Shown in pieces: positions 10,663-63,637 of a stretch of 64,000 nt of DNA. Location: assembly GCA_002155105.1 (NCBI GenBank), contig MUZD01000005.1:1-64000 (forward strand), given 5' to 3'. The DNA comes from Sedimentibacter sp. SX930. Lineage in GTDB: Bacteria > Bacillota > Bacilli > Lactobacillales > Aerococcaceae. The notes beneath the pieces were generated by a model that ran no database searches, was not told the origin of the DNA, and saw only the letters and a program-made list of their open reading frames with translations. The position numbers were made by a program, and so were the translations under genes. Numbering within the stretch: position 1 is the stretch's first letter; the number at the start of each line of letters is the position of its first letter.

Positions 10663-11556
10663 TTAATCGTCCAGGGAAATTTGCAGGATATCCAAAATCC
10701 GGGTCAGGTCGGCTGGAGAAAGGTATTCGATCTCGATCTTGCCTTTTTCGCCCTTGCTGGATATCTGTACGGATGTCCCGAATTTGTCCATCAAACGTTC
10801 TTCACTCTCTTTGATGTATACCGGTTTCGTTTCTTTTTTCTTCTTGTTTTTCTTTTTGGCGACATCACCTGGATTGTTCAGTTGTTGGACCAGCAATTCC
10901 AGATGACGGACAGTGATGCCCTCTTCGGCAGCACGTTTCGCCAATTCGCTGATCAACGATTCATCGTTCAAGCCCAAAAGTGTACGGGCTTGCCCCATGG
11001 AGACCAATCCCTCTTGCAGCATCCGTTTGACGTCCTGCGGCAGGTTCAACAGGCGCAGATGATTGGCGATGTACGGACGGCTCTTGCCTAATCTTTGAGC
11101 TACATCCACTTGCGTGAGATTCAGCTTGTTCATCAAGGTTTGATAGCCTTCCGCCTCTTCCAGCGGGGTCAGGTCTTCACGCTGCAGATTTTCCAAAATG
11201 GCGACTTCTATCATTGCCGTTTCGTCAAATTCACGGACGATTGCCGGGATTGTTGCTTTGCCGGCCAAACGGGAAGCGCGGACGCGGCGTTCGCCTGCAA
11301 TGATTTCATAGCCTTTCACGCTGGATTGGCGCAGGATGACCGGTTGGATGACGCCGTTCAGCATAATCGAGTCAGCCAGTTCCCGCAAAGTCGAGTCATC
11401 AAAGGTTTTTCGTGGCTGATAAGGATTGGGACGTATTTCGTCTAAAGGGATCTCCTGTACCTTCTCTGTCTTTTCATCGATCTTCTCGATATCTTCAAAG
11501 TTGCTGAAGAGCGCGTCGATGCCGCGTCCTAGCCCTTTGCTGTTTTTATTCGCCAT
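10663..11556 (-). CDS. parB: chromosome partitioning protein ParB (Spo0J)
   Basis: ParB binds parS sites, clamps onto DNA as a CTP-dependent sliding clamp, spreads, and loads SMC at the origin. The 297-residue protein has the N-terminal ParB/Srx-like CTPase domain (about 35-125) with the GERRVRASRLAG motif. A helix-turn-helix parS-binding domain (about 130-215, containing VAQRLGKSRPYIANHL) and a C-terminal dimerisation domain follow. A basic Lys-rich linker is seen near 230-240. It overlaps the parA 3' end by 11 bp, implying translational coupling. Several parS sites lie right of oriC in this window. Confidence 0.97.
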   Translation of the reverse strand: MANKNSKGLGRGIDALFSNFEDIEKIDEKTEKVQEIPLDEIRPNPYQPRKTFDDSTLRELADSIMLNGVIQPVILRQSSVKGYEIIAGERRVRASRLAGKATIPAIVREFDETAMIEVAILENLQREDLTPLEEAEGYQTLMNKLNLTQVDVAQRLGKSRPYIANHLRLLNLPQDVKRMLQEGLVSMGQARTLLGLNDESLISELAKRAAEEGITVRHLELLVQQLNNPGDVAKKKNKKKKETKPVYIKESEERLMDKFGTSVQISSKGEKGKIEIEYLSPADLTRILDILQISLDD

Positions 11557-12310
11557 CTGCTAACACTTCCTTTGCCAACTCAAGATAAACTTCCGCTCCT
11601 TTTGAACGGATATCATAGTCAACGATCGATTGTCCATAGCTTGGCGCTTCGGATAAGCGGACATTTCGTGGAATGATTGTCTTGTATACTTTTTCTTTGA
11701 AATATTTTTTGACCTCGTCAACGACCTCGAAGCCGAGATTCGTTCGGGCGTCCAGCATCGTCAATAAGACCCCTTCCAATTTCAGGTCCTTATTGAAATG
11801 CTTCTGAACCAAGCGGAAGGTGTTCAACAGTTGACTCAGCCCTTCCAAGGCATAGTACTCGCACTGGACCGGAATCAACACCGAATCGCTGGCGGTGAAA
11901 GCGTTGATCGTCAAATGCCCCAGTGATGGCGGGCAATCGATGAAAATGAAGTCGTATTCGTCACGCAACGACTGCACTGCGTCGTAAAGGCGCGCTTCAC
12001 GATGCGGCTGATTCGTCAATTCGATTTCAGCCCCTGCCAATTGGATGGTTGCAGGCACGACCCATAAATTTTCCCGCGAGGATTCTCTGATGACGTTCTC
12101 GATGGGCTCTTGGTTCACTAATACATCATATATATCTTTTTCAACATCTGCTTTTGAAATGCCGAGTCCGCTTGTGGCATTCCCTTGGGCATCACTATCT
12201 ATCAATAACACTTTTTTGCCTAAGTAGGCCAAAGAAGCTGCTAAATTGACGGTGGTCGTCGTTTTCCCGACGCCGCCTTTCTGATTTGCGACTGCAATAA
12301 TCCGTGCCAT
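11546..12310 (-). CDS. parA: chromosome partitioning ATPase ParA (Soj)
   Basis: ParA/Soj is a deviant Walker-A ATPase that works with ParB in origin segregation and, in Bacillus, modulates DnaA. The deviant Walker A KGGVGKTTTT is at 11-20, and Walker A' LLIDSDAQGNAT is near 35-46. FIDCPPSLG matches Walker B. The 254-residue length is typical of the chromosomal Soj type without an N-terminal HTH. It is the first gene of the operon parA-parB-DUF951-ychF. GGAGGAG lies upstream of the ATG. Confidence 0.97.
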   Translation of the reverse strand: MARIIAVANQKGGVGKTTTTVNLAASLAYLGKKVLLIDSDAQGNATSGLGISKADVEKDIYDVLVNQEPIENVIRESSRENLWVVPATIQLAGAEIELTNQPHREARLYDAVQSLRDEYDFIFIDCPPSLGHLTINAFTASDSVLIPVQCEYYALEGLSQLLNTFRLVQKHFNKDLKLEGVLLTMLDARTNLGFEVVDEVKKYFKEKVYKTIIPRNVRLSEAPSYGQSIVDYDIRSKGAEVYLELAKEVLADGE

Positions 12311-39088: not shown

Positions 39089-40591
39089 ATGAAAGAAATC
39101 AGTTTGAACGATACAGTCTACAACCTGGTGAAGCAATACCCTGAAATCAGGGAAATCATCATCAGTCTGGGCTTCGAACCATTGCGCAGCGACAAGATGC
39201 TGAATACCGCCGGCCGAATCATGACCATCGGGAAGGCTCTCAAACGCAACGATGTGCCGGAGGAGGCATTCGTCGAAACGCTGGCAAAAAACGGCTTCAG
39301 CGTGAAGGAATTGGCGCCGGCAGCAGTTGCTCCAAGCGAACCGGCAGAGCCCGCCGCTCCAACCGGCGGAATTGCCCGTATGGGTTCAGCGGAATTCCAG
39401 GAGCGCCAGGACATCCTGCAGAGCCTCATCCTGCGCTTGCATAAAGGAGAGGATTGGGATGCGGTGCAAGCCGACTTCAAGAAGCATTTCACGGGCGTCA
39501 GCGCCTATGAGATTTCCGTCATGGAGCAAGGCTTGATGGGCAAAGGGATAGATGCCGAAGACATCCAACGCCTCTGCAACGTGCATGCATCACTCTTCGG
39601 CGGATCCATCGAAGCGGTCTACACCACTTCAGCGGAACAGCAGCATGCCGGGCATCCGATCCAAGTTATGAAACTCGAAAATTTGGCCATCGAAAACACG
39701 CTGGAAAAGGTCAGCAAATTACTGGCCGTTTACCTCGAAACGCAGGAATCGACCCTGAAGGCAGGCATCCAGAAACAATTGGCGCTGCTCGGCGAATTCG
39801 ACAAGCATTATGCCCGCAAAGAATACGCCATTTTCCCGATCATGGAGAACAAAGGCATCACAGCCCCGCCGAAAGTCATGTGGGGTGTCGATGACGATAT
39901 CCGCGCCATGTATAAGGACTTCAAAACCCTTCTGCAAAACGAGGACTTTGCCGCGATTCCCAAAGCATTCTCCGACCTGAAATACGAAATGACGGAGATG
40001 ATTACGAAGGAAGAAGACATCCTCCTGCCGATGATCATCGACATCTTCAATGAGGACCACTGGCTGCAGATAGCCAAGGAGTCCGAAGAGATCGGCTACT
40101 GCATCGTCAAACCGGAAGCAAAATGGGTGCCGGAACGTTCCATTCCCGAGGATGTTTCACATGAAACACTGACGACTGAAGCGAATCCTTACATTAATTT
40201 CCAAACCGGGCACCTGACGCCGCATCAATTGGAAAAGATGCTGAACAACATCCCTTTGGAATTGACTTTTGTGGATGCCGACAACATCGTGCGCTACTAC
40301 AATGACAACGGCGAAGAAAAATTCTTCAAGCGCACCAGCAGCGCAATCGGCCGCGACGTCATGAACTGTCATCCGCCGAAGAGCCTGCCGATCGTCACGA
40401 AACTGCTCGCCGACCTGAAATCGGGCGCGAAAGAAAGCGAATCGATGTGGTTCCGCGCGATGGGCAAATTCATCATGGTCACCTACCGCGCCGTCAGGGA
40501 TGACGACGGCAGCTATATGGGAACCCTTGAATATGTCCAGGACATCCAACCGATCATCGATCTTGACGGCGAAAAGCGGACACTGTCCTAA
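39089..40591 (+). CDS. DUF1858/DUF438/hemerythrin/PAS multidomain protein
   Basis: A 500-residue cytosolic protein with four modules: DUF1858 (about 2-70), a Pro/Ala linker (75-95), DUF438 (about 103-172), a hemerythrin-like HHE domain (about 186-325) and a PAS domain (about 375-495). The HHE part shows metal-ligand candidates His189 in GHP, His240-Tyr-Ala-Arg-Lys-Glu245 and Glu308/Glu309. Such proteins probably bind a di-iron centre and sense or handle O2, NO or redox state. PAS often binds heme or flavin. No kinase or DNA-binding output is present. GAGGTGG precedes the ATG. It is transcribed head-on to replication and a parS-like sequence lies inside it. Confidence 0.88.
   Translation: MKEISLNDTVYNLVKQYPEIREIIISLGFEPLRSDKMLNTAGRIMTIGKALKRNDVPEEAFVETLAKNGFSVKELAPAAVAPSEPAEPAAPTGGIARMGSAEFQERQDILQSLILRLHKGEDWDAVQADFKKHFTGVSAYEISVMEQGLMGKGIDAEDIQRLCNVHASLFGGSIEAVYTTSAEQQHAGHPIQVMKLENLAIENTLEKVSKLLAVYLETQESTLKAGIQKQLALLGEFDKHYARKEYAIFPIMENKGITAPPKVMWGVDDDIRAMYKDFKTLLQNEDFAAIPKAFSDLKYEMTEMITKEEDILLPMIIDIFNEDHWLQIAKESEEIGYCIVKPEAKWVPERSIPEDVSHETLTTEANPYINFQTGHLTPHQLEKMLNNIPLELTFVDADNIVRYYNDNGEEKFFKRTSSAIGRDVMNCHPPKSLPIVTKLLADLKSGAKESESMWFRAMGKFIMVTYRAVRDDDGSYMGTLEYVQDIQPIIDLDGEKRTLS
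40153..40168. promoter_or_regulatory. parS-like site inside the DUF438 gene
   Basis: TGTTTCACATGAAACA matches the ParB consensus TGTTNCACGTGAAACA at all but one centre base (A for G). It lies about 8 kb left of the origin, the only candidate on that side of the window. A single centre mismatch may weaken ParB binding. Confidence 0.5.
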
Positions 40592-47896: not shown

Positions 47897-48209
47897 TTAT
47901 CCACAACCTTTTTTTTAATGCACAATGCCACGGGATAACTTCTGCAATCGCCCTGATTGCTCACACCTTCGACCCGGTTTATCCACATTCCTACAGCGTG
48001 TGCATTTCTACCGAAATCCCACCCGCAAAACCTGTGGAAAAGTGTATCAAACGTTGTAACAATGCATGTTTTAAAAACATTCCATCCCACAACCGACCGT
48101 GGACAACTGCTTCGTCAACAAAGATTGTCCACACCCTTCCCGAACCTGTGGACAACTATTTATACACCGGTTAATTGTTTTATTCACAGCTGAAAAGAGT
48201 TGTGGAAAA
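47897..48209. other. oriC, left DnaA-box cluster
   Basis: The spacer between rpmH and dnaA holds at least eight DnaA boxes. Perfect TTATCCACA is at 47897-47905 and 47979-47987, TTATTCACA at 48180-48188, and TTGTCCACA at 48125-48133 and on the minus strand at 48147-48155. TTTTCCACA occurs on the minus strand at 48033-48041 and 48201-48209, and a weaker TTGTCCACG at 48098-48106. The strand switch of gene orientation occurs here. This corresponds to the incAB-type boxes of Bacillus. Confidence 0.93.
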
Positions 48210-48223
48210 CTTTTTGATATAAT
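48201..48223 (+). promoter_or_regulatory. dnaA promoter with overlapping DnaA box
   Basis: An extended -10 (TGA-TATAAT, 48215-48223) with no good -35 is preceded by a DnaA box at 48201-48209 in the -35 region, which fits DnaA autoregulation. Confidence 0.6.
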
Positions 48224-48262
48224 GCTAAAATAAAAAGGACTCACTAAAAGGAGGTGTCCCAT

Positions 48263-49594
48263 TTGGATGACATCTATTCATTATGGCGTTATCTGCAAGA
48301 AAAATTTCAAGAATCACTGTCCAAAGTCAGCTACGATACTTGGATAGACAGCGCAGTCCCGGTCCGACTGACTGATACGAATATCATCATCGAAGTTCCC
48401 TCTTCTTTACATAAAGATTATTGGCAAAATAATTTGATGAGCAGAATTGTTGAAGGCATCTACGAATTTAGCGGCAAAGAACTGACTCCCATTTTTATGA
48501 TCAAGAACGAGGAAATGCCCGATATCGCAAAACCGACCATAAAACGCACCAACAACAATCGTCTCTTCAAGGATGCCCAACTGAACAGCAAGTATACCTT
48601 TGACACCTTTGTTATCGGAAAAGGAAACCAGATGGCTCACGCTGCCGCCCTCGTCGTGGCGGAGGAACCCGGCACAATCTACAACCCGCTCTTCTTCTAT
48701 GGAGGCGTCGGCTTAGGCAAGACCCATTTGATGCACGCCATCGGCCATCAAATGCTGCAACTGCGGCCAACCGCACGGGTAAAATACGTCAGCAGCGAAA
48801 CGTTCGCCAATGATTTCATCAATTCCATCCAGAATCGGACGCAGGAGCAATTCCGCAATGAATACCGCAGCGTCGACTTATTGATGGTCGATGATATCCA
48901 ATTTTTTGCCGACAAAGAAGGAACGCAGGAAGAGTTCTTCCATACTTTCAATGCGCTTTACGATGAACGCAAACAAATCGTGCTGACGAGCGATCGCTTG
49001 CCGAACGAGATCCCGAAACTGCAGGAACGGCTCGTCTCGCGTTTTGCTTGGGGCTTATCGGTTGATATCACACCGCCAGATCTGGAGACACGCATCGCCA
49101 TTCTGCGCAAAAAAGCCAACAGCGAGCGCTTGGAGATCCCGGATGATACCCTCAGCTACATCGCTGGGCAGATAGATTCCAACATCAGGGAACTGGAAGG
49201 TGCGCTCGTACGGGTTCAAGCCTATTCAGCGATACAAGGGACCGACATCACCACCAGTTTGGCAGCGGACGCCCTGAAGAGCATCATGCCTTCCGAAAAA
49301 CCAAAAGCTTTATCCATCTACGCCATCCAGCAAGCGGTAGGGAAATATTACCATGTGACCGTCGAGGAATTGAAAGGCAAGAAGCGCACCAAAGGGATCG
49401 TGGTGCCAAGACAAATCGCCATGTATCTTTCCCGAGTGATGACGGATAATTCCTTGCCGAAAATCGGTTCCGAATTCGGCGGCAAGGATCACACGACTGT
49501 CATCCACGCGCACGACAAGATTGCCCTTTCCGTAAAAAAAGACCCTGTTCTGCAACGCGAAATCGAGACGATCCAAAATAGTCTGAAAAAATGA
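48263..49594 (+). CDS. dnaA: chromosomal replication initiator protein DnaA
   Basis: DnaA binds boxes at oriC and melts the DNA. The N-terminal DnaB/partner domain (1-about 80), linker, and AAA+ domain follow in order: Walker A GGVGLGKT at about 147-154, Walker [11 protein letters not shown]. The C-terminal DNA-binding domain carries the signature [14 protein letters not shown] at 48263 is the likely start because GGAGG lies 8 nt upstream, giving [11 protein letters not shown]. The GTG at 48254 overlaps the ribosome-binding site. A TTG start would keep DnaA synthesis low. Length is then 443 residues. Confidence 0.98.
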
Positions 49595-49607
49595 TCCTCT
49601 CGCGCAT

Positions 49608-49740
49608 TGTGGATAAGCCAATAAATAAGACGCCATTTACGAACACGTTATCCACAGGTGGAAAACGATTGGTTTTATCAGCTTATTTCACTTATCCACA
49701 GTATAAACAGGCCCTACTACTATTACTAATATTATTTAAT
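49608..49740. other. oriC, right part: DnaA boxes and DnaA-trio unwinding element
   Basis: Perfect boxes lie at 49608-49616 (minus), 49648-49656 and 49692-49700. The last is followed by a GC patch (CAGGCC) and then CTACTACTATTACTAATATTA (49714-49734), the DnaA-trio repeat known from Bacillus, with A/T-rich DNA beyond. This is the likely strand-opening site. Confidence 0.9.
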
Positions 49741-49771
49741 TTATATGAATAACCATCGGAGGTCCCTTATT

Positions 49772-50923
49772 ATGAAATTTTCCATTAATCGTCAGGTTTT
49801 GATCAAACACTTATCTGACGTACAAAGAGCTATTTCCAGCAGAACGACAATCCCTATTTTGACAGGTGTAAAAATCAGCGCTGATGAAAATGGAATCGTA
49901 TTGAGCGGAAGCGACTCGGATATTTCCATCGAGACGCTTATCCCTGTGTCGGAAGAGAATAATCAGATCGAAATCCACACACAAGGCGGCATTGTCCTGC
50001 CTGCTCGTTTCTTCAGTGAAATCGTCAAAAAATTAGCTGATGAAAAAATCACGATTGAAGTCAAAGATCATTTCCAGACAAACATCACTTCCGCAAAAGC
50101 ATCTTTCACCATAAACGGAATAGATGTAAACAACTATCCGAATTTCCCGGTCATCGATTCTAATGAAGTCATCACCTTGCCGACTGCTTTATTCAAACAA
50201 GTGATCCAGCACACGGTAATCGCAACGTCGACACAGGAAAGCCGTCCGATCTTGACTGGGGTGAACATGACCATCCAAGATGGGAAATTGACAGCTGTCG
50301 CTACGGACAGCCATCGTTTAAGTCAGCGCGTCATCTCGATCGCGGCTCCGGACTCACAGCTGGAAAAAACCTACAATGTCATCATTCCCGGAAAAAGCTT
50401 GGTGGAACTCTCACGGATCGTTGAGAATCAAGCGACCATCGAAATGATGATCACGGAGAACCAAGTCCTTTTCAAAGCCGAAAATGTTTATTTCTACTCG
50501 CGCTTGCTGGAAGGCTACTACCCGGATACAAACCGCTTGATTCCAGCCAGCTCCAGCACTCAGATTGTCCTGAATGCCTATGATTTGCTGCAGGCTACCG
50601 ACCGTGCCTCCCTGCTTTCGCATGAAGGAAAAAACAACGTCGTCAAACTGTCCATCGACGCAAACAAAGTCGAGTTATCAGGAAACTCTCCTGAGGTCGG
50701 CAATGTGGAAGAATCCTTGGCTTATGAGTCCGCCAGTGGAGATCCGCTGATCATTTCCTTCAATCCTGATTACATGAAGGATGCGCTGCGCACATTCGGC
50801 CAACAGGATGTCCAAGTCAATTTCACTTCTGCTGTACGCCCATTCACAGTCGTGCCGGCAGATCGTGAAGACGATAACGATAATTCGTTCATCCAATTGA
50901 TCACGCCTGTAAGGACTTATTGA
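49772..50923 (+). CDS. dnaN: DNA polymerase III beta sliding clamp DnaN
   Basis: DnaN is the ring-shaped processivity clamp. The roughly 383-residue protein begins MKFSINRQVLIKHLSDVQRA and ends with the clamp C-terminus ITPVRTY. Three repeated clamp domains are implied by length. ATG at 49772 follows CGGAGGTCC. An in-frame ATG at 49745 lies before that site and is rejected. It is followed by a strong terminator. Confidence 0.98.
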   Translation: MKFSINRQVLIKHLSDVQRAISSRTTIPILTGVKISADENGIVLSGSDSDISIETLIPVSEENNQIEIHTQGGIVLPARFFSEIVKKLADEKITIEVKDHFQTNITSAKASFTINGIDVNNYPNFPVIDSNEVITLPTALFKQVIQHTVIATSTQESRPILTGVNMTIQDGKLTAVATDSHRLSQRVISIAAPDSQLEKTYNVIIPGKSLVELSRIVENQATIEMMITENQVLFKAENVYFYSRLLEGYYPDTNRLIPASSSTQIVLNAYDLLQATDRASLLSHEGKNNVVKLSIDANKVELSGNSPEVGNVEESLAYESASGDPLIISFNPDYMKDALRTFGQQDVQVNFTSAVRPFTVVPADREDDNDNSFIQLITPVRTY

Positions 50924-50936
50924 TCCGATTGGTAAA

Positions 50937-50982
50937 ATCCAAAAAGCAAGGAGACGATCCGATCGTTTTCTTGCTTTTTGCT
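50937..50982 (+). terminator. terminator of dnaA-dnaN
   Basis: AAAAAGCAAG and ACGAT blocks pair with ATCGT and CTTGCTTTTTG (50941-50980), a bidirectional-looking hairpin 14 bp after the dnaN stop. Confidence 0.9.
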
Positions 50983-51185
50983 TATCCAAAAATGAAAATG
51001 CTCGGACCAGCCGTTTTTCCCATAGGAAGAAAGTCTGCATGTGCTGCATTTGTTCGGCTAAAGATAAAATGACTGAAAAACGCGAATTTTAAATTTATAA
51101 GCCTATAGGCGCTTTCGTTTACATATAGCTAATTTGTATTGTTTTCGGAAAAAATTGAAATAAGGGCCTTTTTTTTCGCGAAAAT

Positions 51186-51262
51186 TTGAAATTGATCAAA
51201 AAAAATAGTATAATAAACATATTAATGAGCGTTGTTGCGTGGATTTTATTTTCCACGCTTAT
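51186..51262 (+). promoter_or_regulatory. yaaA-recF-gyrBA promoter and leader hairpin
   Basis: TTGAAA (51186-51191), 17-nt spacer, perfect TATAAT (51209-51214). The transcript soon meets a 7-bp stem GCGTGGA/TCCACGC (51237-51258) followed by TTATTTTATT, which looks like a weak terminator or attenuator. The rest of the 50983-51185 spacer is A/T-rich with no gene. Confidence 0.65.
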
Positions 51263-51277
51263 TTTATTGGAAAATAG

Positions 51278-51549
51278 GTGAATTTCTTGAAAAATATTGT
51301 GAATATTGATGCAGAGTTCATTACTCTTGGTCAACTACTGAAACATGTTAATCTGATTTCCAGCGGCGGAATGGCCAAATGGTTCCTTTCAGAATATGTG
51401 GTTTACGTAGATAACGAAAAAGAAGACCGCAGAGGCCGCAAATTGTTTCCCGGTACGATGATCGACATCCCGGGTGAAGGCACTTTCTTCATCCAGTCAA
51501 CAAAATCGGATAAAGAAGAGGCTGAGCAAGACAACAGTGAGTCCGAAGC

Positions 51550-51553
<4 letters not shown>
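51278..51553 (+). CDS. yaaA: S4-domain RNA-binding protein YaaA (RlbA)
   Basis: A small S4-fold protein always encoded between dnaN and recF in Firmicutes, probably ribosome- or RNA-binding. EFITLGQLLKHVNLISSGGMAKWFL and the following VYVDNEKEDRRGRKL show the S4 alpha-L motif. An acidic tail (about 78-91) is unusual. The start is either GTG at 51278 or TTG at 51287 (AGGTG 6 nt upstream). It overlaps recF by 4 bp. Confidence 0.92.
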
Positions 51554-54613
<3,060 letters not shown>

Positions 54614-54631
54614 AAGGGGGTTGGAAATTAA

Positions 54632-57259
54632 ATGTCTGATGAAATTGAAAAAATAAATGATCAAGCCATGGAACAAAGGGAATTAAGCCATGAAATGGAA
54701 ACTTCATTCCTGGAATATGCCATGAGCGTTATCGTAGCCAGGGCTTTGCCTGACGTCCGTGACGGACTCAAGCCGGTCCATCGCCGTATTCTGTACGGTA
54801 TGAGCGAATTGGGCGTTACGCCTGATAAAGCACACAAAAAATCCGCACGTATCGTCGGGGACGTAATGGGTAAGTACCATCCCCACGGTGACAGTGCCAT
54901 CTATGAATCCATGGTGCGTATGTCCCAGGATTTCAGTTACCGTTATCCGTTGGTCGATGGACACGGAAACTTCGGCTCAATCGATGGAGACAGCGCCGCA
55001 GCGATGCGTTACACCGAAGCGCGGATGTCAAAAATCGCCTTGGAGATGTTGCGTGACCTCAACAAGGATACCGTCGATTACCACGATAACTATGACGGTT
55101 CCGAAAGTGAACCCGATGTATTGCCGGCCCGCTTCCCTAACCTGCTGGTGAATGGAGCTTCCGGTATCGCTGTTGGGATGGCGACAAATATCCCACCGCA
55201 CAACCTGACGGAAGTCATTTCCGCCCTGCATATCCTGATGAATGATCCGGATGCGACGACTGCCGAATTGATGGAGGCCGTTCCTGGCCCCGATTTCCCT
55301 ACAGGCGGTATCGTCATGGGCAAATCAGGCATCAGAAAAGCCTATGAAACGGGCAAAGGCTCAATCATTGTCCGCGGACGTGTAGAGGTCGAAATCCTGA
55401 AAAACGGCAAAGAACGCATCATCATTTCGGAATTGCCTTACATGGTCAACAAAGCGAAATTGGTCGAACGGATTGCTGAACTGGCCCGCGATAAACGGAT
55501 CGAAGGCATAACCGACTTGGCGGATGAATCCGACCGCGACGGCATGCGTGTTGTCATCGATGTCCGCAAGGATGTCAGTGCCGGCGTCATTCTGAATAAT
55601 CTCTATAAATTGACGCCGCTCCAATCATCTTTCGGCTTCAATATGTTGGCGATCGTAAAAGGCATCCCTAAAGTGCTGGGACTCAAGCAGATTCTGGTCC
55701 ATTACCTGGAACACCAAGAAGAAGTCATCCGCAGAAGAGCCGCATTCGATAAACGAAAAGCGGAAGCCCGTGCGCATATCTTGGCCGGTTTGCGGATCGC
55801 TTTGGATCATATCGATGAAATCGTAGCGATTCTGCGCGGTTCAACCAATGGCGATGCGGCCAAACAAATCTTCATCGACAAATACGGTCTTTCCGACAAA
55901 CAAGCGCAAGCCATTTTGGATATGCGTTTGGTGCGTCTGACCGGTTTGGAAAGAGAAAAAGTTGAAGCAGAGTATGATGCGCTGATGGCTTTGATTGCTG
56001 ATCTGGCTGATATTTTAGCGAATGAGCAGCGTGTCTTCGACATCATCTATACGGAACTGCTTGAAATCCAAGAAAAATTCGGCGACAAACGTCGTACGGA
56101 ACTTTTGGTCGGAGAAGTATTGTCGCTTGAGGATGAAGACTTGATCGAAGAGGAAGACATCGTCCTGACTTTGACCCACAACGGTTACATCAAACGTTTG
56201 CCGAACAGCGAATTCAGAGCCCAAAAACGCGGCGGACGCGGTGTCCAAGGCATGGGCATCCATGATGATGATTTCATCGAAACGCTGATTTCGGCATCGA
56301 CGCACGATGTGTTGCTGTACTTCTCGAACCAAGGGAAAGTATACAAAACAAAAGGCTATGAAGTGCCTGAATACGGCCGCCAGGCAAAAGGTTTGCCGAT
56401 CATCAACTTGCTGAACTTGGATGCCAACGAGAAAATCCAAGCCATCATCAATGTCAAAGGTGGCCCGCAAGACGGGGATTACTTGTTCTTCACGACACGG
56501 ATGGGTACCGTCAAACGGACATCCGCCACTGAATTCCAAAATATCCGTCAAAGCGGTCTGCGCGCAATCAACCTGAAGGATGAGGATGAGCTGATCAAAG
56601 TATCCTTGACTGACGGCAACCAGAACATCATCATCGGAACGCACTTCGGCTATTCCGTAAGCTTTGATGAAAAGGACGTCCGCGATATGGGGAGGACCGC
56701 CACCGGTGTCCGAGGCGTGAAACTGAGAGAAAACGATTATGTTGTCGGCATGGATGTGCTGAAACACGAGTCGGAAGTTCTGATCATCACGGAAAATGGT
56801 TACGGCAAACGTACGGCAGCCGATGAGTATGCCATCAAAGGACGCGGCGGCAAAGGGGTCAAAACAGCCAACATCACTGAGAAAAACGGTAAATTGGTAG
56901 GGTTGACGACTGTCTCCGGCGATGAAGACATCATGATCATCACGGACAAAGGCGTCATGATCCGTTTCCACGCGGATGCCATTTCCCAAACTGGCCGTGC
57001 CACTCTGGGCGTACGCTTGATCAAGCTTGATGGCGAAGCCATTGTATCGACAATGGCAAAAGTTGAGCGCGAAGAGGATGAAGAAGTTGTGGCACCTCTG
57101 AATGAGGAAGTGGGCTCAGAAGGCGAAAACAGCGCCTTAGAAGCAGCTGATGCTACCGAACAGGCAAATACACCAGATGCAGCGGAAACATCCGAAATGG
57201 CCGATAAATTGAGCGATTTCGCGGATGAACTGTTGGATGAAGAAGATTCGGAAGAATAA
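54632..57259 (+). CDS. gyrA: DNA gyrase subunit A
   Basis: GyrA cuts and rejoins DNA. Catalytic Tyr127 lies in RYTEARMSK. The quinolone-determining positions appear wild type, with Ser88 and Glu92 in HGDSAIYE. The C-terminal beta-pinwheel contains the GyrA box QKRGGRG. The last about 65 residues are strongly acidic (many Glu/Asp, ending LLDEEDSEE), longer than in Bacillus. Such tails are known to tune supercoiling in some gyrases. AAGGGGG precedes the ATG. It is followed by a strong terminator. Confidence 0.99.
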
Positions 57260-57284
57260 AACTTCGATACAAAAGCTAATACCG

Positions 57285-57330
57285 CTAAAACGGAGGAAAC
57301 CGTCCCAGGACAGTTTCCTCCGTTTTTTTT
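57285..57330 (+). terminator. terminator of gyrB-gyrA
   Basis: A 13-bp stem (AAACGGAGGAAAC at about 57288-57300 with its complement at 57313-57325) followed by eight U. Confidence 0.95.
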
Positions 57331-57360
57331 GCCATCTTTGAATGAGGCTGAAAAAAAGGC

Positions 57361-57389
57361 TTGCCATAAAAAATGAAATATGGTACAAT
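57361..57389 (+). promoter_or_regulatory. rpsF-ssb-rpsR promoter
   Basis: TTGCCA (57361-57366), 17-nt spacer, TACAAT (57384-57389). Confidence 0.75.
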
Positions 57390-57420
57390 CTTTAGATGTG
57401 AGTAATCCTGAAAAGGTACT

Positions 57421-57462
57421 CTCCTTGCTCTTACAAAAGTAAGGGCCAAAGTCCACAAGGAG
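57421..57462 (+). promoter_or_regulatory. putative S6:S18 autoregulatory leader hairpin
   Basis: CTCCTTG (57421-57427) pairs with CAAGGAG (57456-57462), which contains the rpsF Shine-Dalgarno sequence. A second small stem CTTAC/GTAAG (57430-57443) and an internal bulge lie inside. The position and fold agree with the bacterial S6:S18 leader motif, in which the S6-S18 dimer represses its own operon. The family assignment is by eye. Confidence 0.65.
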
Positions 57463-57473
57463 GTGACAGTCAA

Positions 57474-57767
57474 ATGAGCAATTACGAAATCAACTACATT
57501 ATCCGTCCTAACATCGAAGAAGAAGCTAAAGCAGAATTGATCGCACGTTTCGATTCTATTTTAACTGATAATGGCGCTGAAGTTATTGAATCAAAAGACT
57601 GGGCGAAACGCCGTTTAGCTTATGAAATCAAAGATTTTCGTGAAGGTATCTACCATATCGTGAAAATTTCTGCTTCAGATGCTAAAGCAATCGACGAATT
57701 CGACCGTCTAGCAAAGATCAATAGCGATATCATTCGCCACATCGTTGTTAAAGTAGAAACTAAGTAA
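57474..57767 (+). CDS. rpsF: 30S ribosomal protein S6
   Basis: A 97-residue S6 starting [20 protein letters not shown] with the conserved [25 protein letters not shown] precedes the ATG. First gene of rpsF-ssb-rpsR. A parS site begins 2 bp after its stop. Confidence 0.98.
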
Positions 57768-57769
57768 AG

Positions 57770-57785
57770 TGTTCCACGTGAAACA
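57770..57785. promoter_or_regulatory. parS site between rpsF and ssb
   Basis: TGTTCCACGTGAAACA fits the ParB consensus TGTTNCACGTGAAACA exactly. It lies in the 38-bp spacer just before the ssb ribosome-binding site, about 8 kb right of the unwinding element. Confidence 0.92.
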
Positions 57786-57805
57786 TTTTGAAAGGAGTAA
57801 GATGA

Positions 57806-58357
57806 ATGATTAATAATGTTGTCTTAGTCGGCAGACTTACAAAAGATGTTGATTTACGCTATACATCCAGCGGCACAGCAGTCGGAACCTTCGCTCTTGC
57901 AGTAAACAGACAGTTTACTAACCAAGCAGGAGAAAGAGAAGCTGACTTCATCAATTGTGTCATTTGGAGAAAATCTGCAGAGAATTTCGCGAATTTCACT
58001 CGTAAAGGCTCTTTAGTCGGTATCACTGGCCGAATCCAAACAAGGAATTATGATAATCAACAAGGACAGCGCGTATACGTGACTGAAGTCGTTGCAGATA
58101 ATTTCACATTGTTGGAATCGAAAACAACTACCGAACAAAGACCGAGAGAGACTGGCGCAGCTTCTTCAAATCAAGCAGCTCCGAGTGCAAACTTCGGATC
58201 AAGCAAATCTTTTGAATCTAACCAAAACCAAGGACAGTATAATAATCAATACTCTTCTCCGAAACAAAACGGTTTTTCTGATTTTAACTCAACTGCTGAT
58301 CCGTTTTCATCAAACGGAGAATCAATTGACATTTCAGATGATGATTTACCGTTCTAG
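57806..58357 (+). CDS. ssb: single-stranded DNA-binding protein
   Basis: SSB covers ssDNA in replication and repair. The OB fold (1-about 110, [20 protein letters not shown]) is followed by a Gln/Asn/Ser-rich flexible linker and the acidic protein-interaction tip DISDDDLPF. The 183 residues are typical. AAAGGAG lies upstream of the ATG. Confidence 0.98.
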
Positions 58358-58400
58358 TCTTTAGGACAGAACGGTTAGTTTAGGAAAAGGAGGAATTGAC

Positions 58401-58643
58401 ATGGCATTTCAACGTAACAGCAGAGGCGGACGCAAACGTAAGAAAGTTTGTTATTTCTGTGCTAACCACATTGATCATGTAGATTACAAAGAGACTGATT
58501 TATTGAAACGTTATATATCTGAAAAAGGTAAAATTTTACCTCGTCGTGTAACAGGTACATGCGCTAAACATCAAAGAACTTTGACTGTATCTATCAAACG
58601 TTCTCGTATCATGGCTCTTATGCCATTTACATTAGCAGAATAA
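58401..58643 (+). CDS. rpsR: 30S ribosomal protein S18
   Basis: An 80-residue S18 with [18 protein letters not shown] and [12 protein letters not shown]. The CxxC plus downstream Cys/His suggest the zinc-binding (C+) form. AAAAGGAGG precedes the ATG. Last gene before the long gene-free region. Confidence 0.98.
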
Positions 58644-58647
58644 TATT

Positions 58648-58681
58648 AAGGGAGTCGCTTCCAGGAGCGCTCCTTTTTTTG
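58648..58681 (+). terminator. terminator of rpsF-ssb-rpsR
   Basis: GGAG-CGCT pairs with AGCG-CTCC (58651-58673, one bulged base) followed by seven U. Confidence 0.93.
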
Positions 58682-59176
58682 TACCCAAAAACAGTTGCTG
58701 GATATGGACACGCATTGCATCTTAGCACCTACCCCCTCTTCCTGATACAAATTTTTTTGAAGTGCCCTATCCGCTTCTATCGAACGAGCGTATGGTCAGA
58801 TAAAGCAAACTGCTTGATGCATCGTTCTGAGAGGCTCCGCCCAAGCACTAAATCAGCCAAGTAGACACTATATTTATCTATCAGGGTGAGCCGGATCATT
58901 CCGATAACACTATCCCTCAATACATGGGACACTCCATTTAAACGCCCCACCCTCCGCTTCTTACTGACAGAAATACTCCAAAGTATTTTTCATAAGCGCT
59001 GGTTCCCTCTACCTGGGTATTCTCCATCGATAGATATAAGGATAGGCACTAGAATGCTCTGATCGGGCCATTATATCCCTGTGAGAACGAACCATCCTAA
59101 GTCATGGGTAAATACTTCTAATAAGAATGCAGATGCTGTCAGAGGCTCAAATTTCGCTGATTTCAATAAAAGAAAA

Positions 59177-59224
59177 ACAAACGGCGATACAATGTTCCAC
59201 GTGGAACATTGTATCGCCGTTTGT
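59177..59224. repeat. 48-bp perfect palindrome centred on parS
   Basis: Each 24-nt arm (59177-59200 and 59201-59224) is the exact reverse complement of the other with no loop. The centre TGTTCCACGTGGAACA (59193-59208) is a fully symmetric parS variant. On the minus strand the palindrome is followed by a U-rich run (TTTTTCTTTTATT), so it could also end leftward transcripts. It can form a cruciform. Confidence 0.9.
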
Positions 59225-60261
59225 GATGCTGAATAACTTCTGGATTGCTCCAATATATTTTCCTTAGTGGGTATTGCTCTCAAAAATTGAAAGTGGGAAT
59301 CCCCAAAAAGTATCACCTGCGGATCTAGGCCATCTCCTGATGCGTATGCTTCATTCATAAATAATATATTTCTGAAACAGGCAGAACTGGATTGTTTGGG
59401 ATTGGCTACAGTTTTCAATCCAGCAAACAATAAGACATCCCCTTCTATCCCCCGTACTGTAGTAGTTACCCGATACGTAACAACACATATCAGCGACATA
59501 CCTCCCCTGTTTTCTTAAGGGCTATAAAACAGATAGTGATGCCCCACGAAATCAGACTCATTCAATTGAATATATTGCAGATGAACTAAGGACTTGGCAT
59601 CATGAGATACCCATCCGTCTGTGCGTGAAAAGTTGCCGATATTACATTTATAGCTATCGAAATTATTAATAGATGCATAGGATCAGGTCCCGGATTGAAA
59701 AAAATATACATGGCATCAAAAAATGAAAACAAATTGGCACTATTCAAATAGGGTCATCCTTACTGTTGAAGGTTTTCGTTTAAGCTGTATATTCCTAAGG
59801 TGCAGCTGAATTGAAATGATGGATATTCTGAAGTTATTCATCAATGACACATGGCCAAAGTCGCTGGCTTGTGCCGCCACCCATTGATTTACGGCGGATG
59901 ACTTCACCCTTGCTGCAACGGACCTGCCGAAGCGATGATCGCTCGAATTAAGCGCCATTTTTTTTGCGGTTTCCATCAAGTGTCTGGGTGAGTTATGCTC
60001 ACATAACGATTTTTTCCTGGAAATTTAGACTTAGGGCTTTACGGTTTTTTGGTGTTTGGTCGGTTGAATTGTCTCGCTTCACCAGCTACATCCCCGTAAT
60101 GTTTGGGCTAATTGCGATGAATCAAAATTAAAGTTAGGTGCTGGAAGAGCAATAGGCTTTTTTTTGCATACTATATTGATGGGATGGATTTCATCGAGGT
60201 AGTTGATCTCACTGGCATGTGATGTAGGTTGTACACAGGCTGATTATATTTGTATTTTCTA

Positions 60262-60770
60262 TTATCCACAAAAGGATATGAAGATTATTTCAGGACTGAC
60301 TGTACATTAAAAAACAAGATGTGGAAAACTATTCCCTGCTCTTTTATCCACAGAAGGATCTCATCAAGATCAACGGACTTCTGTTATGAATTTGCAAACG
60401 GGCAGGAATGACTAATTGCTGGATATATAGGGTGACTTTTTCAAAATCCGGTAATTTTCATTAAAATGATAGAAAATTCATCCAAAATAAAGGACATTAT
60501 TTCATAAATACACTAATCAAACAAATGTTCAGACGAATATATAGGAATCAGCGTAATCACACCGACTTATGCACAGGATGTCCACAGGTATTCGACAGCG
60601 CCAAAGCTGTCATAAATAATAGCAAGTTAATAAGTTATCAACAAAGTTATTTTATAGCGGAAATCCTATTATAGCAAGGTTAGAACATACTATTCGATGG
60701 AGTTATGCACAGGCAAACGTCGAATAATGTGCATAACTGCAAAGGGTGGGGATAGTTCGAGTTATCCACA
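60262..60770. other. second DnaA-box cluster
   Basis: Six boxes matching TTATNCACA occur within 510 bp: TTATCCACA at 60262-60270, 60344-60352 and 60762-60770, and TTATGCACA at 60567-60575, 60703-60711 and, on the minus strand, 60728-60736. A TTTTCCACA lies on the minus strand at 60320-60328, and a partial ATGTCCACA near 60578. Chance would give far less than one. No DnaA-trio follows any box, so titration or regulation of DnaA is more likely than a second strand-opening site. Confidence 0.8.
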
Positions 60771-61051
60771 AAAAAATGTGCTGCTAAAAAATACGAAAAC
60801 TGAAAAAAATAGACAGGATGAAAATCAATTTTCAAGCAAGAAAATTGATTCTGCAGATTTTATGAAAAAATAGAAGAACATCGTATAGCTAGATTATTCA
60901 AATAATTAGTGAAATAGTAATAGAAGTCATTAGAAAAATCATTTTTCGTAAAAAGGGTTGTTGGAATAATAGATTGAAAGAAAGCGAGTTTAAGATGAAA
61001 AAATAGTAAGAGAAGGGATCAAATCGAAAAGACAGCATAATCGAACAAAAA

Positions 61052-61067
61052 AGTTCCACGTGGAACA
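61052..61067. promoter_or_regulatory. parS-like site
   Basis: AGTTCCACGTGGAACA differs from the symmetric parS variant at the first base only. Confidence 0.75.
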
Positions 61068-61127
61068 TAGATTAAGAAAAATGGAATATACACAGGAGTT
61101 TTAAAAATAGAAGGGGTAATCAAAAAA

Positions 61128-61143
61128 TGTTCCACGTGGAACT
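61128..61143. promoter_or_regulatory. parS-like site
   Basis: TGTTCCACGTGGAACT differs from the symmetric parS variant at the last base only. Its centre is 76 bp from that of the previous site. Confidence 0.75.
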
Positions 61144-61487
61144 ATTGAAGATAGTAGAGGTAATTGCAACTGAGTGAAAACTATAATAATAATTACATTT
61201 AGATCGGGAATGGTTACTATTTTGAGAGATTAATTTCCACGGTACCTAAATCCGTTTGCGGATAAGTACACATCTAAATGCAGCTATGCTTTGAAAAAAT
61301 ATCCAGCACTTTAGTTCAATTTGGCAGATGGTGTATGAAGGCTGGATAGGCGGGAACGTTTGTACACCTATTCTAGAGCACATATTTATTTTGAGGAAAT
61401 TATACGTTTAAACGCCGAAAACATTACGATGACCGGGTTATGCTCAGAAAGTCCGCTATCCAGAATACGAACTTTATTCAGGAGAAA

Positions 61488-61503
61488 TGTTTCACGTGAA
61501 ACA
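61488..61503. promoter_or_regulatory. parS site upstream of gdpP
   Basis: TGTTTCACGTGAAACA is the exact consensus parS and a perfect palindrome, 115 bp before the gdpP start. Confidence 0.95.
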
Positions 61504-61618
61504 ATCAATTTGGCGTTGAGATGTCAACTAATCCCGTCAGAAAGGGCATTATAGCTATTATTATCTGAATATGTTAAAATGTACGAGTGCAAAATGTAGG
61601 TTCAGTAAAGGAGCTATC

Positions 61619-63637
61619 ATGAAAATAAAGGAAAAGTTAAAGAATCTTCCTCACTTCATAAAGGCTGACAAGATTAAGGTTCCTTTCCTGATTATCGTGT
61701 TCTTATTGCTGGTGATCGTTGTTTTGACGTTCATTGCAGATTGGAAAATCGGAATTGGAATTACGCTCTTATGCGTTGGAATTGTTGGGTTCATCAGTTA
61801 TTCTTCGGAGTATTTGATTGATGAGACAAATCAATACATATCTGACTTATCTTATCGAATCAAAAAAGGTGAACAAGAGGCTTTAATTAAAATGCCTATT
61901 GGGATACTTCTATATAATAAGCAAGAAGAAATCCAATGGATGAACCCATATTTAATAAAGTATTTTGGCAAGAAAGATACACTGGGCAGAAAGCTGAAAG
62001 TGGTTGATGAAGAATTATATCAGCTTTTTAAAGAATCGCAGGATTATGTGATACGCCGTGTGAAATGGGGAGATCATTATTTTGATATGATCATTCAAGA
62101 GGATATTGGCGTCATTTATTTGATGGATATAACAGAATATGCCAAAATTGAAGAGAAGTACAAAGACGAAAAATTTGTTTTTGGGAATATCATTGTCGAC
62201 AATTATGATGAGGCTGTTCAATCCATGAACGATCGTAAGCGATCGAATGTAAACAACTATCTGACGAATCAACTCACAAATTGGGCAAACATGAATAATG
62301 TCTTTCTGAAACGAGTAGATGATGACCGCTTTATAGCATTGACCAATATGCGTGCATTAAAGAAAATCGAAGAAAACAATTTTGATATCATAAATCAAAT
62401 AAGGGAAAGAACCTACAAGCAAAATTTTCCGTTGACATTGAGCATGGGTTTCTCATATGAGAAAACTTTTGAGCAAACCAATTTTAAAGAAGTCGCTAAA
62501 ATGGCGCAGTCGAATATTGATTTAGCCTTGGCAAGAGGTGGCGATCAGGTTGTTGTGCGGGCCGAAAATGAAGATGCCCGTTTCTATGGTGGTAAAACTA
62601 ACCCAATGGAAAAACGGACCCGTATCCGTGCGAGAATGATCAGCCAGGCTTTGGAAGAGCTTATTATCCATGCCGATAAAGTGATCATCATGGGTCATAG
62701 TTATCCGGATATGGACGTTATCGGTTCCTGTTTAGGAATCCGCCGCATTTCTCAGATGAACAATCGGGAAGCCTGGATAGTATTGGATCCGCAACAATTT
62801 TCCAATGATGTGAACCGGATCATGCAGGAGATAGACAAAGATCCTTTGATTGCGAAGCGAATCATTTCGCCTGAACAAGCAATGGCATTGGTGACGCCAC
62901 AGACGCTGATCGTGATGGTTGATGTCCATCGCCCATCCATGACTCCGGCACCTGGGCTGTTGAATCTGTCCAAAAAAATTGTTGTTTTGGATCATCACAG
63001 ACGCGGACAAGAATTTCCGAAAGATTCTGTTTTGGTTTATATGGAACCTTATGCGTCCTCCACATCGGAATTGATCGCTGAATTGTTCGAATATCAATCC
63101 AATGAGATGGATGCTATCAATAAGATAGAAGCAACTGCTATGTTGGCGGGGATTATCGTCGATACCCGCAACTTCAGTTTGAGAACCGGATCAAGGACTT
63201 TTGATGCTGCCAGTTATCTGCAATCTAATGGAGCCGATACCGTACTGATCCAGAAATCACTGAAAGAGGACTTGGATACTTATCTGTTGCGAAGCCATTT
63301 GTTGCAGACAATGGAATTTGTGAATGGTAACCTGGCGATCGTCCATGGGGAAGATGAAAAAATCTATGACACGGTCGTAGCTGCTCAAACAGCCGACACG
63401 ATGTTGTCGATGGAAGCGGTAGATGCTTCATTTGTCGTCACAAAACGCCAAGACGGCAGAGTCGGAATCAGCGCCAGAAGTCTGGGTCAATACAATGTGC
63501 AGACAGTCATGGAAAAATTAGGTGGCGGCGGACATTTATCCAATGCAGCCACTCAGATTGAGAATACGACAGTCCATGAAGTCGTTGAGAAACTGAAAGC
63601 AGTCATAAATCCAGAAAAAATCAAGGAAGGGGAATAA
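61619..63637 (+). CDS. gdpP: cyclic-di-AMP phosphodiesterase GdpP
   Basis: GdpP is a membrane-bound enzyme that hydrolyses c-di-AMP to pApA, affecting potassium and osmolyte control and beta-lactam tolerance. The 672-residue protein has two membrane helices (about 20-40 and 43-62), a degenerate PAS domain (about 80-175), a degenerate GGDEF domain (about 180-310), then DHH/DHHA1. Visible DHH parts are GHSYPDMD (359-366), VDVHRPS, LDHH (457-460) and GGGGHLSNAA. ATG at 61619 follows AAAGGAG. The open frame to 61571 is upstream of that site and rejected. Confidence 0.97.
   Translation: MKIKEKLKNLPHFIKADKIKVPFLIIVFLLLVIVVLTFIADWKIGIGITLLCVGIVGFISYSSEYLIDETNQYISDLSYRIKKGEQEALIKMPIGILLYNKQEEIQWMNPYLIKYFGKKDTLGRKLKVVDEELYQLFKESQDYVIRRVKWGDHYFDMIIQEDIGVIYLMDITEYAKIEEKYKDEKFVFGNIIVDNYDEAVQSMNDRKRSNVNNYLTNQLTNWANMNNVFLKRVDDDRFIALTNMRALKKIEENNFDIINQIRERTYKQNFPLTLSMGFSYEKTFEQTNFKEVAKMAQSNIDLALARGGDQVVVRAENEDARFYGGKTNPMEKRTRIRARMISQALEELIIHADKVIIMGHSYPDMDVIGSCLGIRRISQMNNREAWIVLDPQQFSNDVNRIMQEIDKDPLIAKRIISPEQAMALVTPQTLIVMVDVHRPSMTPAPGLLNLSKKIVVLDHHRRGQEFPKDSVLVYMEPYASSTSELIAELFEYQSNEMDAINKIEATAMLAGIIVDTRNFSLRTGSRTFDAASYLQSNGADTVLIQKSLKEDLDTYLLRSHLLQTMEFVNGNLAIVHGEDEKIYDTVVAAQTADTMLSMEAVDASFVVTKRQDGRVGISARSLGQYNVQTVMEKLGGGGHLSNAATQIENTTVHEVVEKLKAVINPEKIKEGE

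Follow-up and report, generated by a model that had tools for sequence, protein, structure and literature searches.

A gene-free spacer between rpsR and gdpP with clustered parS sites and conserved DnaA boxes near oriC in Trichococcus

DnaA boxes are present at the parS locus of Caulobacter crescentus, where binding of DnaA was shown and was linked to the movement of the centromere (Mera et al. 2014 via PMC6399470). At rctA/parS2 and the 39-mers of Vibrio cholerae chromosome II, spreading of ParB2 covers one site and competes with RctB (PMC3688505, PMC6399470). Here we describe a locus containing both DnaA boxes and parS sites, the spacer between rpsR and gdpP in a 64,000-nucleotide stretch of DNA (hereafter the window; contig MUZD01000005.1 of assembly GCA_002155105.1, positions 1 to 64,000). 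The assembly was deposited under the name Sedimentibacter sp. SX930, and the window belongs to a Trichococcus genome; its GdpP and the GdpP of Trichococcus sp. K1Tr share 100% identity. We consider it fairly likely that the spacer is an origin-proximal centromere, i.e., a loading zone for ParB, with a built-in cluster of DnaA boxes outside oriC, and that it is not a second origin. The computed features behind this reading are the anatomy of the spacer, its conservation, the concentration of parS sites, a covarying hairpin, and a scan that found no unwinding motif.

The locus is similar to that of Caulobacter in being an origin-near chromosomal centromere that also carries DnaA sites. However, Caulobacter belongs to an unrelated phylum and binding was shown there, whereas the co-location described here is read from the sequence and concerns a gene-free zone with multiple parS sites in Lactobacillales. 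Vibrio chromosome II likewise has inhibitory initiator sites beside parS, but its initiator is RctB and not DnaA, the chromosome is a secondary one, and the site lies near its own origin and parAB2. In B. subtilis, also a Firmicute, clusters of DnaA boxes are found outside oriC (Okumura 2012 via PMC5295017, PMC13220808); in the excerpts of these two papers they are not described as lying inside a parS array, and their regulatory role is judged to be minor (PMC5295017). The spacer shares with datA and DARS of E. coli the presence of several DnaA boxes within about 1 kb or less, away from oriC (PMC5295017). In E. coli, IHF (and Fis) is required for datA and DARS2 (PMC5295017), and B. subtilis is without IHF (PMC13220808). 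DnaA-box complexes of this kind change the nucleotide state of DnaA; the comparison with the spacer covered the box cluster. A preliminary description of this DNA had suggested that the locus is possibly datA-like, and the likeness seen is that of the box cluster itself. The parS consensus, the single ParB and the position of the sites around oriC are as in the origin-near arrays bound by ParB/Spo0J (PMC6399470), but here the sites are concentrated in one gene-free spacer, and one parS forms the tip of a covarying, terminator-like hairpin. Among the matches listed in our search of the open-licence literature, which covered titles and the openings of abstracts, neither a spacer with parS and DnaA boxes between rpsR and gdpP nor a parS inside a terminator was described. 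An inverted-repeat survey ties inverted repeats to terminators generally, and parS is not mentioned in the excerpt available (PMC13155455).

The gene order on the right side of the window is dnaA-dnaN-recF-gyrB-gyrA-rpsF-ssb-rpsR, followed by the spacer and gdpP. DnaA was identified with NCBIfam, and the RecF-type ATPase, GyrB, GyrA, SSB, S18 and GdpP with Pfam, while dnaN and rpsF are presumed from their place. The biggest gap between ORFs in the 104 kb examined lies at the spacer. This gap measured 3.2 kb when open reading frames (ORFs) of at least 150 amino acids (aa) were counted, rpsR being too short to count, and 2.1 kb once the largest spacer ORF (142 aa) was included; the runners-up were 1.3 and 0.9 kb. 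That ORF is shared at the same place only by the window and its conspecific (G009) among the 12 Trichococcus spacers compared, and a Pfam search of four spacer ORFs, this one included, gave no match. Because of the lack of a Pfam match and of any ORF shared beyond the conspecific, a protein-coding reading of the spacer was rejected. The sole result of an Rfam search of 58300-61800, a sub-threshold SNORD2 match (E 0.64), was also rejected. The preliminary description had reported about 3 kb without genes, six DnaA boxes within 510 bp and four parS or parS-like sites within 2.3 kb. All of this was confirmed, as a 2975-bp spacer without a credible gene, six exact boxes at 60262-60770 and a span of 2.31 kb for the four sites.

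The six boxes match TTATNCACA exactly. The number of exact boxes expected in the spacer is 0.16, and the maximum among 200 Markov sequences was 2. In the whole window 12 exact boxes were found against 1.7 expected, and the six outside the spacer are at oriC; with one mismatch allowed, the densest 500-bp bins were 48001-48500 (oriC) and 60501-61000 (spacer), with six boxes each. The boxes are thus intergenic, above chance in number and distant from the unwinding site, as in the non-oriC clusters of B. subtilis. Regulation of gdpP by DnaA was judged unlikely; the boxes lie 857-1357 bp upstream of the gdpP start.

The gdpP gene was detected in 12 of the 13 Trichococcus genomes searched (the miss, G005, is 63% complete). 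The 12 spacers include those of the window and its conspecific, and the T. flocculiformis spacer is cut by the contig end before rpsR. Ten spacers are 2714-3095 bp long, the cut T. flocculiformis spacer is 3182 bp and that of T. palustris 4344 bp; over aligned columns the identity to the window is 49-79%, or 99% for the conspecific. All 12 combine at least one box with parS, and the exact boxes number 4-6 per spacer. The 54 box columns were identical to the window at a fraction of 0.948, compared with 0.710 in the other 796 columns of 60150-60999, and when six 9-mers were drawn at random 100,000 times, no draw reached the conservation of the boxes. Box 60703 alone is unremarkable, as 13.5% of the 9-mers of the region are equally conserved, and it is the full set that stands out. 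Since the box columns exceeded all resamplings, shared ancestry and chance do not explain the boxes, and the alignment supports a real DnaA-box cluster under selection within Trichococcus. Invariant columns are scarce in the left half of the spacer (58704-60143), at 0-13% per 60-bp bin. A comparison of this spacer among relatives had been proposed, and within the genus the long spacer and the boxes are kept and no decayed gene was found.

The four spacer parS sites, at 59193, 61052, 61128 and 61488, have 1, 2, 2 and 0 mismatches, respectively. At up to three mismatches, four sites are present in 11 of the 12 Trichococcus spacers, with one extra, one-sided site in the metagenome-assembled genome DJKA47; at up to two mismatches T. 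patagoniensis has three. In T. flocculiformis there are two, of which one remains at up to two mismatches, and the distal parS hairpin and the 61052-type site are missing; the distal half of its spacer contains an ORF of 465 aa for a DDE transposase (409-1803 of locus L021). The 37-contig assembly to which the window belongs contains six two-sided parS sites with up to two mismatches, all in 21.4 kb around oriC and four of them in the spacer. The other two, at 57770 and 40153, are absent from the preliminary description, as are the confinement of two-sided parS to this region, the 48-bp palindrome around parS 59193 and a second six-box cluster of the assembly (described below). No further two-sided parS was found in the assembly at this threshold, and two isolated one-sided matches compare with five for a reversed-pattern control. 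The fraction of parS sites (up to one mismatch) located inside the rpsR-gdpP spacer was 7/7 in G019, 5/6 in G030, 2/3 in G064, and 2/4 in both G009 and G012. In the latter two, which are one-contig Trichococcus genomes, the other two sites are in the rpsF-ssb gap and to the left of dnaA. The site at a place like 61488 is the most widespread in relatives. The only protein with a ParB_N match in the assembly scored above the cut-off of the general ParB model TIGR00180 and below that of the Noc model. Several 16-bp palindromic parS sites clustered near oriC and a gene for a cognate chromosomal ParB, as in a chromosomal centromere, are therefore both found, and the centromere-like character suggested in the preliminary description is well supported, as a prediction, by concentrated and conserved parS sites and a single ParB_N protein. 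As a separate observation, the parS-like site at 40153 has a counterpart at a similar distance in G009 and G012.

The distal parS stands at the centre of a perfect palindrome. Its arms are 17-28 bp in 10 of 11 species, with one internal mismatch in K1Tr and T. ilyis, and T. flocculiformis is without the palindrome. As a control, the arms at the other three parS sites of the window spacer are just 7-8 bp, and those at sites other than the distal one in other species are 7-14 bp, except in T. palustris, which has three more extended parS (14, 25 and 19 bp); single long cases occur in the genera g17, g5, g4 and g3 (our labels). Folded as the minus strand, with the T-tract 3', the hairpin has an energy of -38.4 kcal/mol (z -10.9), while two other parS gave z values of about -1. 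Over 22 pairs in 10 sequences, 90% of the cells pair versus 73.1% after shuffling, 12 pairs are changed on both sides versus 6.3, and the covariation score is 0.476 versus 0.119. None of these values was reached in 500 shuffles; related rows can beat shuffles without structure, but hardly so for the two measures that count pairs or types. Slid versions pair at 35-47%. In ten species the left arm is bordered by an A-rich tract, which reads as a T-tract in the minus strand, and terminator-like sites in the spacer number 7 against 2.2 expected, three of the 7 being registers of this hairpin. The predicted structure at 59177-59224 thus has a stable, compensated hairpin and a T-tract, as intrinsic terminators do. 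A promoter-like site just before gdpP, directed leftward into the spacer, has 11 of 12 matches, and 11 was reached by 0.2% of shuffled 110-mers; in the other genera scanned on the same strand the score never exceeded 10. From this conserved site and the parS hairpin, a leftward non-coding RNA running through the zone and ending at the hairpin is predicted. The parS hairpin probably ends leftward transcription through the zone, and the promoter-like site is perhaps the source of that transcription.

The comparison was extended to the family (76 genomes), in which 40 loci beyond Trichococcus were fetched and 37 had both rpsR and gdpP (misses, G035, G014 and G051). With the 12 Trichococcus spacers and eight extra g3 loci the total was 57, and exact DnaA boxes and parS sites with up to two mismatches were counted. 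parS was found in 56 of the 57, at least one box in 35 and three or more boxes in 30; all 35 box-bearing spacers have parS, which bears out the earlier suggestion that boxes and parS are joined in one recurring cis-region. Among the 37 non-Trichococcus loci, 15 have at least one exact box (g17 6/6, g14 1/4, g4, g5 and g3 6/6), ten of them three or more, and parS is absent only from G060. The eight additional g3 loci all have 3-7 boxes and 2-9 parS sites, rpsR not being reached in three. In four g3 genomes (G022, G030, G028 and G031) rpsR is either 6.9-12 kb distant or outside the stretch, and the boxes and parS are still within 2.6-3 kb of gdpP; this block is gene-free in G022 and G030, as far as the six longest ORFs go. 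The 22 box-free spacers are 114-551 bp long with 0-2 parS sites. The g17 spacers (398-1316 bp) carry 1-4 boxes with one or two parS, so that boxes need no large array, and the idea that short spacers with one or two parS sites never have boxes was rejected. A parS about 50-210 bp before gdpP is the common state.

From other families of the order 32 loci were fetched, and one f4 locus without genes was dropped. The 21 spacers of families f2, f3 and f6 are 93-672 bp long and contain no boxes, and 18 of them contain parS. Neither boxes nor parS were found in the seven f9 loci (in two of them rpsR was not found and the 1500 bp before gdpP were taken instead), and all seven genomes encode ParB. The three f7 loci, one without rpsR, have no parS, and four boxes were found in G109. 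The preliminary statement that Firmicutes usually have a short spacer here thus fits all 21 spacers of f2, f3 and f6, but not several genera of the family itself, in which the spacer is long. In a quick GyrA tree with 65 rows, the label of at least one box required 3 changes versus 18.0 after shuffling, and none of 500 shuffles was as low. Such a distribution is compatible with a single gain on the basal branch of the family (support 97) and two losses, and the term lineage-specific in the preliminary description was too narrow for a putative family-wide origin with losses.

A possible, though rather unlikely, alternative is that two independent neighbours are seen here, an ordinary origin-near parS array and an ordinary DnaA-titrating cluster of the B. 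subtilis type, which are close to each other only since both are favoured near oriC. B. subtilis has six non-oriC clusters, whose joint deletion leads to early initiation (PMC5295017, PMC13220808). A further cluster in the Trichococcus genome, at htrA (described below), has no parS nearby in scans of G009 and G012 with up to one mismatch. The spacing to parS is not fixed, as the boxes are 0.86-1.36 kb from gdpP in the window and toward the rpsR end in g3, g4 and g5, and the association is not strict in g17. Conversely, there is no box-bearing family spacer without parS, and outside g17 such spacers mostly have more parS sites (3-9; exceptions, two in G017 and one or two in T. flocculiformis) than the 0-2 of the box-free ones. 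Several other results weigh against our reading of the spacer as a centromere with a built-in box cluster. Exact boxes are missing in 22 of 57 family spacers, in all 28 stretches of f2, f3, f6 and f9 and in two of three from f7, and the counts in g5 (2 boxes) and in G062 and G064 (1 each) are within the maximum of the 200 Markov sequences. A single parS is found in many relatives, so that ParB as such can do without an array, and since f9 genomes encode ParB but have no parS at this locus, possession of ParB does not by itself entail the site. Where the boxes stand in relation to parS varies between genera, and boxes and parS could be neighbours just because both favour the origin region. The insertion in T. 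flocculiformis, with the missing hairpin and 61052-type site, indicates that parts of the element are dispensable. As for the leftward RNA, promoter-like sites across the whole spacer are at chance level as a set (11 found, 10.5 expected), and the one before gdpP is in a block conserved also for gdpP.

The preliminary description had also raised the question of replication starting in the spacer, and it is very unlikely that the DNA unwinds there, be it as a second origin or as a distant portion of a tripartite oriC. The scan used the customary definition of the DnaA-trio unwinding motif. In 32 dnaA-dnaN gaps, trios were detected in 21 and a box at most 40 nt upstream of them in 16, one of which is the gap of the window (box 49692). 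The 20 family spacers longer than 250 bp, of which only the window represents Trichococcus, yielded a trio-like run in five cases, never with a box at most 40 nt upstream; since 11 of the 32 control gaps, including those of the box-bearing g4 and G057, are missed by the scan, this is strong but incomplete evidence. The tandem arrangement of box, GC-rich gap and DnaA trios is present at 49692 and was not found in the spacer, where, as in the clusters of B. subtilis type, no unwinding element stands beside the boxes (0/20 spacers). The GC content of 0.338 over 60151-61618, i.e., boxes in AT-rich DNA, and a minus-strand trio-like run near 60930 would suit an origin, but that run was rejected as an unwinding element because no box adjoins it. 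A second local minimum of the cumulative GC skew at 59.0-60.0 kb also points to the spacer, whereas the deepest minimum in 40-64 kb is at 50-51.5 kb. The sense GC3 skew is negative in dnaA, dnaN, gyrB, gyrA and ssb (48254-58357) and positive in gdpP, rplI and dnaC, but also in recF inside the negative block. The dnaA skew is negative in most loci compared, short-spacer genera included, and the gyrA skew is positive in g4, which has seven boxes. Skew was dropped as a test for the start site, as it is inconsistent across genera and confounded with GC3; a start in the spacer is unsupported by the motif scan, and strand skew does not decide. It is hardly credible that the spacer is a decayed gene or neutral junk with chance motifs. 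The poor conservation of the left half and the tolerated insertion in T. flocculiformis would agree with it, but the number and conservation of the boxes are far above chance, the palindrome arms are kept by double changes, no Pfam match was found, and ORFs of at least 80 aa are absent from the spacers of g4, g5 and four genomes of g3, which are 2.2-2.8 kb long; the conservation of the box columns already contradicts this reading. Lastly, the palindrome at parS 59193 may owe its perfect state to template switching during replication and not to selection for a terminator or for a structure related to ParB, which we regard as unlikely. Quasi-palindrome correction is a known process, and near-perfect arms that differ in sequence between species fit it; the hairpin is known from sequence, and promoter-like sites in the spacer are at chance. 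However, template switching would act on the other parS sites too, and these have short arms except in T. palustris; the A-rich tract beside the left arm in ten species and the excess of terminator-like sites (three of them registers of this hairpin) also speak against it.

From the sequence we infer the binding of DnaA and ParB and every functional step of the favoured centromere with a box cluster. Sliding of ParB, loading of SMC and the action of Soj are established knowledge. The single ParB would load at several parS sites in the gene-free zone, slide outwards and recruit SMC. DnaA would bind the spacer boxes and, with no known unwinding motif beside them, would be expected to do so without opening the DNA. 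The cluster could then hold DnaA near the origin, as a site for titration or timing, or could carry a DnaA signal to the centromere. ParB clamps or Soj in the same zone might alter the occupancy by DnaA, by which initiation would be tied to segregation; the joint control of both proposed in the preliminary description would take this form. Candidate roles of the boxes are accordingly titration of DnaA, a segregation signal, and displacement of DnaA by ParB. A more far-reaching version, which we hold to be doubtful, is a composite replication-segregation switch of Lactobacillales, ancestral to the whole family. Loading of ParB clamps, or leftward RNA stopped at parS-tipped hairpins, would displace or release the DnaA held at the boxes, so that the amount of DnaA available to oriC, at a distance of 11 kb, would be set by the state of the centromere, and parS would both be bound by ParB and form the tip of a terminator shielding the ParB zone. 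How the start of replication is tied to segregation is an old open question in bacteria. Related genera with and without the composite element offer a natural experiment, and the Trichococcus locus is compact, gene-free and deletable, with type strains in existence. If DnaA and ParB do meet here, the locus would be a Gram-positive counterpart of the link between DnaA and the centromere in Caulobacter.

Table 1. Coordinates of the features of the window
Feature	Position	Strand	Remarks
Gene-free rpsR-gdpP spacer (whole element)	58644..61618	.	2975 bp; rpsR end 58643, gdpP start 61619
DnaA box TTATCCACA	60262..60270	+	exact match; conserved
DnaA box TTATCCACA	60344..60352	+	exact match; conserved
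DnaA box TTATGCACA	60567..60575	+	exact match; conserved
DnaA box TTATGCACA, left half of convergent pair	60703..60711	+	least conserved among the six
DnaA box TTATGCACA, right half of convergent pair	60728..60736	-	exact match; conserved
DnaA box TTATCCACA	60762..60770	+	exact match; conserved
Distal parS TGTTCCACGTGGAACA	59193..59208	.	centre of 48-bp palindrome
parS-like AGTTCCACGTGGAACA	61052..61067	.	two mismatches
parS-like TGTTCCACGTGGAACT	61128..61143	.	two mismatches
Perfect parS TGTTTCACGTGAAACA	61488..61503	.	131 bp before gdpP
parS in rpsF-ssb gap, same parS cluster	57770..57785	.	up to two mismatches
parS-like TGTTTCACATGAAACA	40153..40168		inside ORF 39089-40591 (DUF438/hemerythrin/PAS protein)
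Perfect 48-bp palindrome, parS 59193 at centre	59177..59224	.	terminator-like; minus-strand T-tract; covarying arms in 10 species
rpsR intrinsic terminator-like hairpin with T-tract	58648..58680	+	fold 58646-58680 -14.8 kcal/mol, z -3.6
Promoter-like TTAACA-18-TATAAT, leftward into spacer, away from gdpP	61548..61577	-	same position in 12/12 Trichococcus spacers
Conserved AT-rich island without exact DnaA box or parS	60864..60923	.	43% invariant columns, 12 Trichococcus spacers
oriC: boxes on both sides of dnaA, box/DnaA-trio motif at 49692-49726	47897..49740	+	
ParB	10663..11556	-	sole ParB_N match in assembly
ParA/Soj-type ATPase adjoining parB	11546..12310	-	ParA-type NCBIfam models matched below cut-offs

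In the whole assembly 105 exact boxes were counted against 50 for a reversed-pattern control. Among 100 of the 105, six exact boxes packed into about 320 bp form a further tight cluster, which lies 3' of a gene for an HtrA-type protease (G000:C29:131792-132112; L086 9793-10113). It is kept in G009 (six boxes) and G012 (five), about 0.32-0.37 Mb from dnaA. The one-contig genome G012 has 100 boxes against 58 for the control, and its tight clusters, of five boxes each, are those at oriC, in the rpsR-gdpP spacer and at htrA. The htrA cluster has a cation-uptake pair of the TrkH/TrkA type on one side and the 3' end of the HtrA-type gene on the other; past that gene comes one for a metallo-beta-lactamase-fold (WalJ-like) protein.

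The convergent pair at 60703-60736 is spaced 25 bp from start to start. The same spacing is found in 10 of the 12 Trichococcus spacers, T. palustris having 23 bp and T. pasteurii no pair, and pairs at 24-26 bp occur in 5/6 g17 spacers and at 24 bp in 3/3 htrA clusters; most of the g17 pairs and one htrA pair were counted with one mismatch, and the pattern was spotted post hoc. At oriC of the window a convergent pair is spaced 21 bp, and g3 tends to 9-11 bp. The convergent pair is possibly a module of non-oriC clusters.

The AT-rich island of the spacer is adjoined by the trio-like run on the minus strand. The four boxes of G109 (L112) in f7 are located just 3' of rpsR, 2215-1972 bp before gdpP, with no parS there, and may represent an independent or older cluster at the equivalent place.

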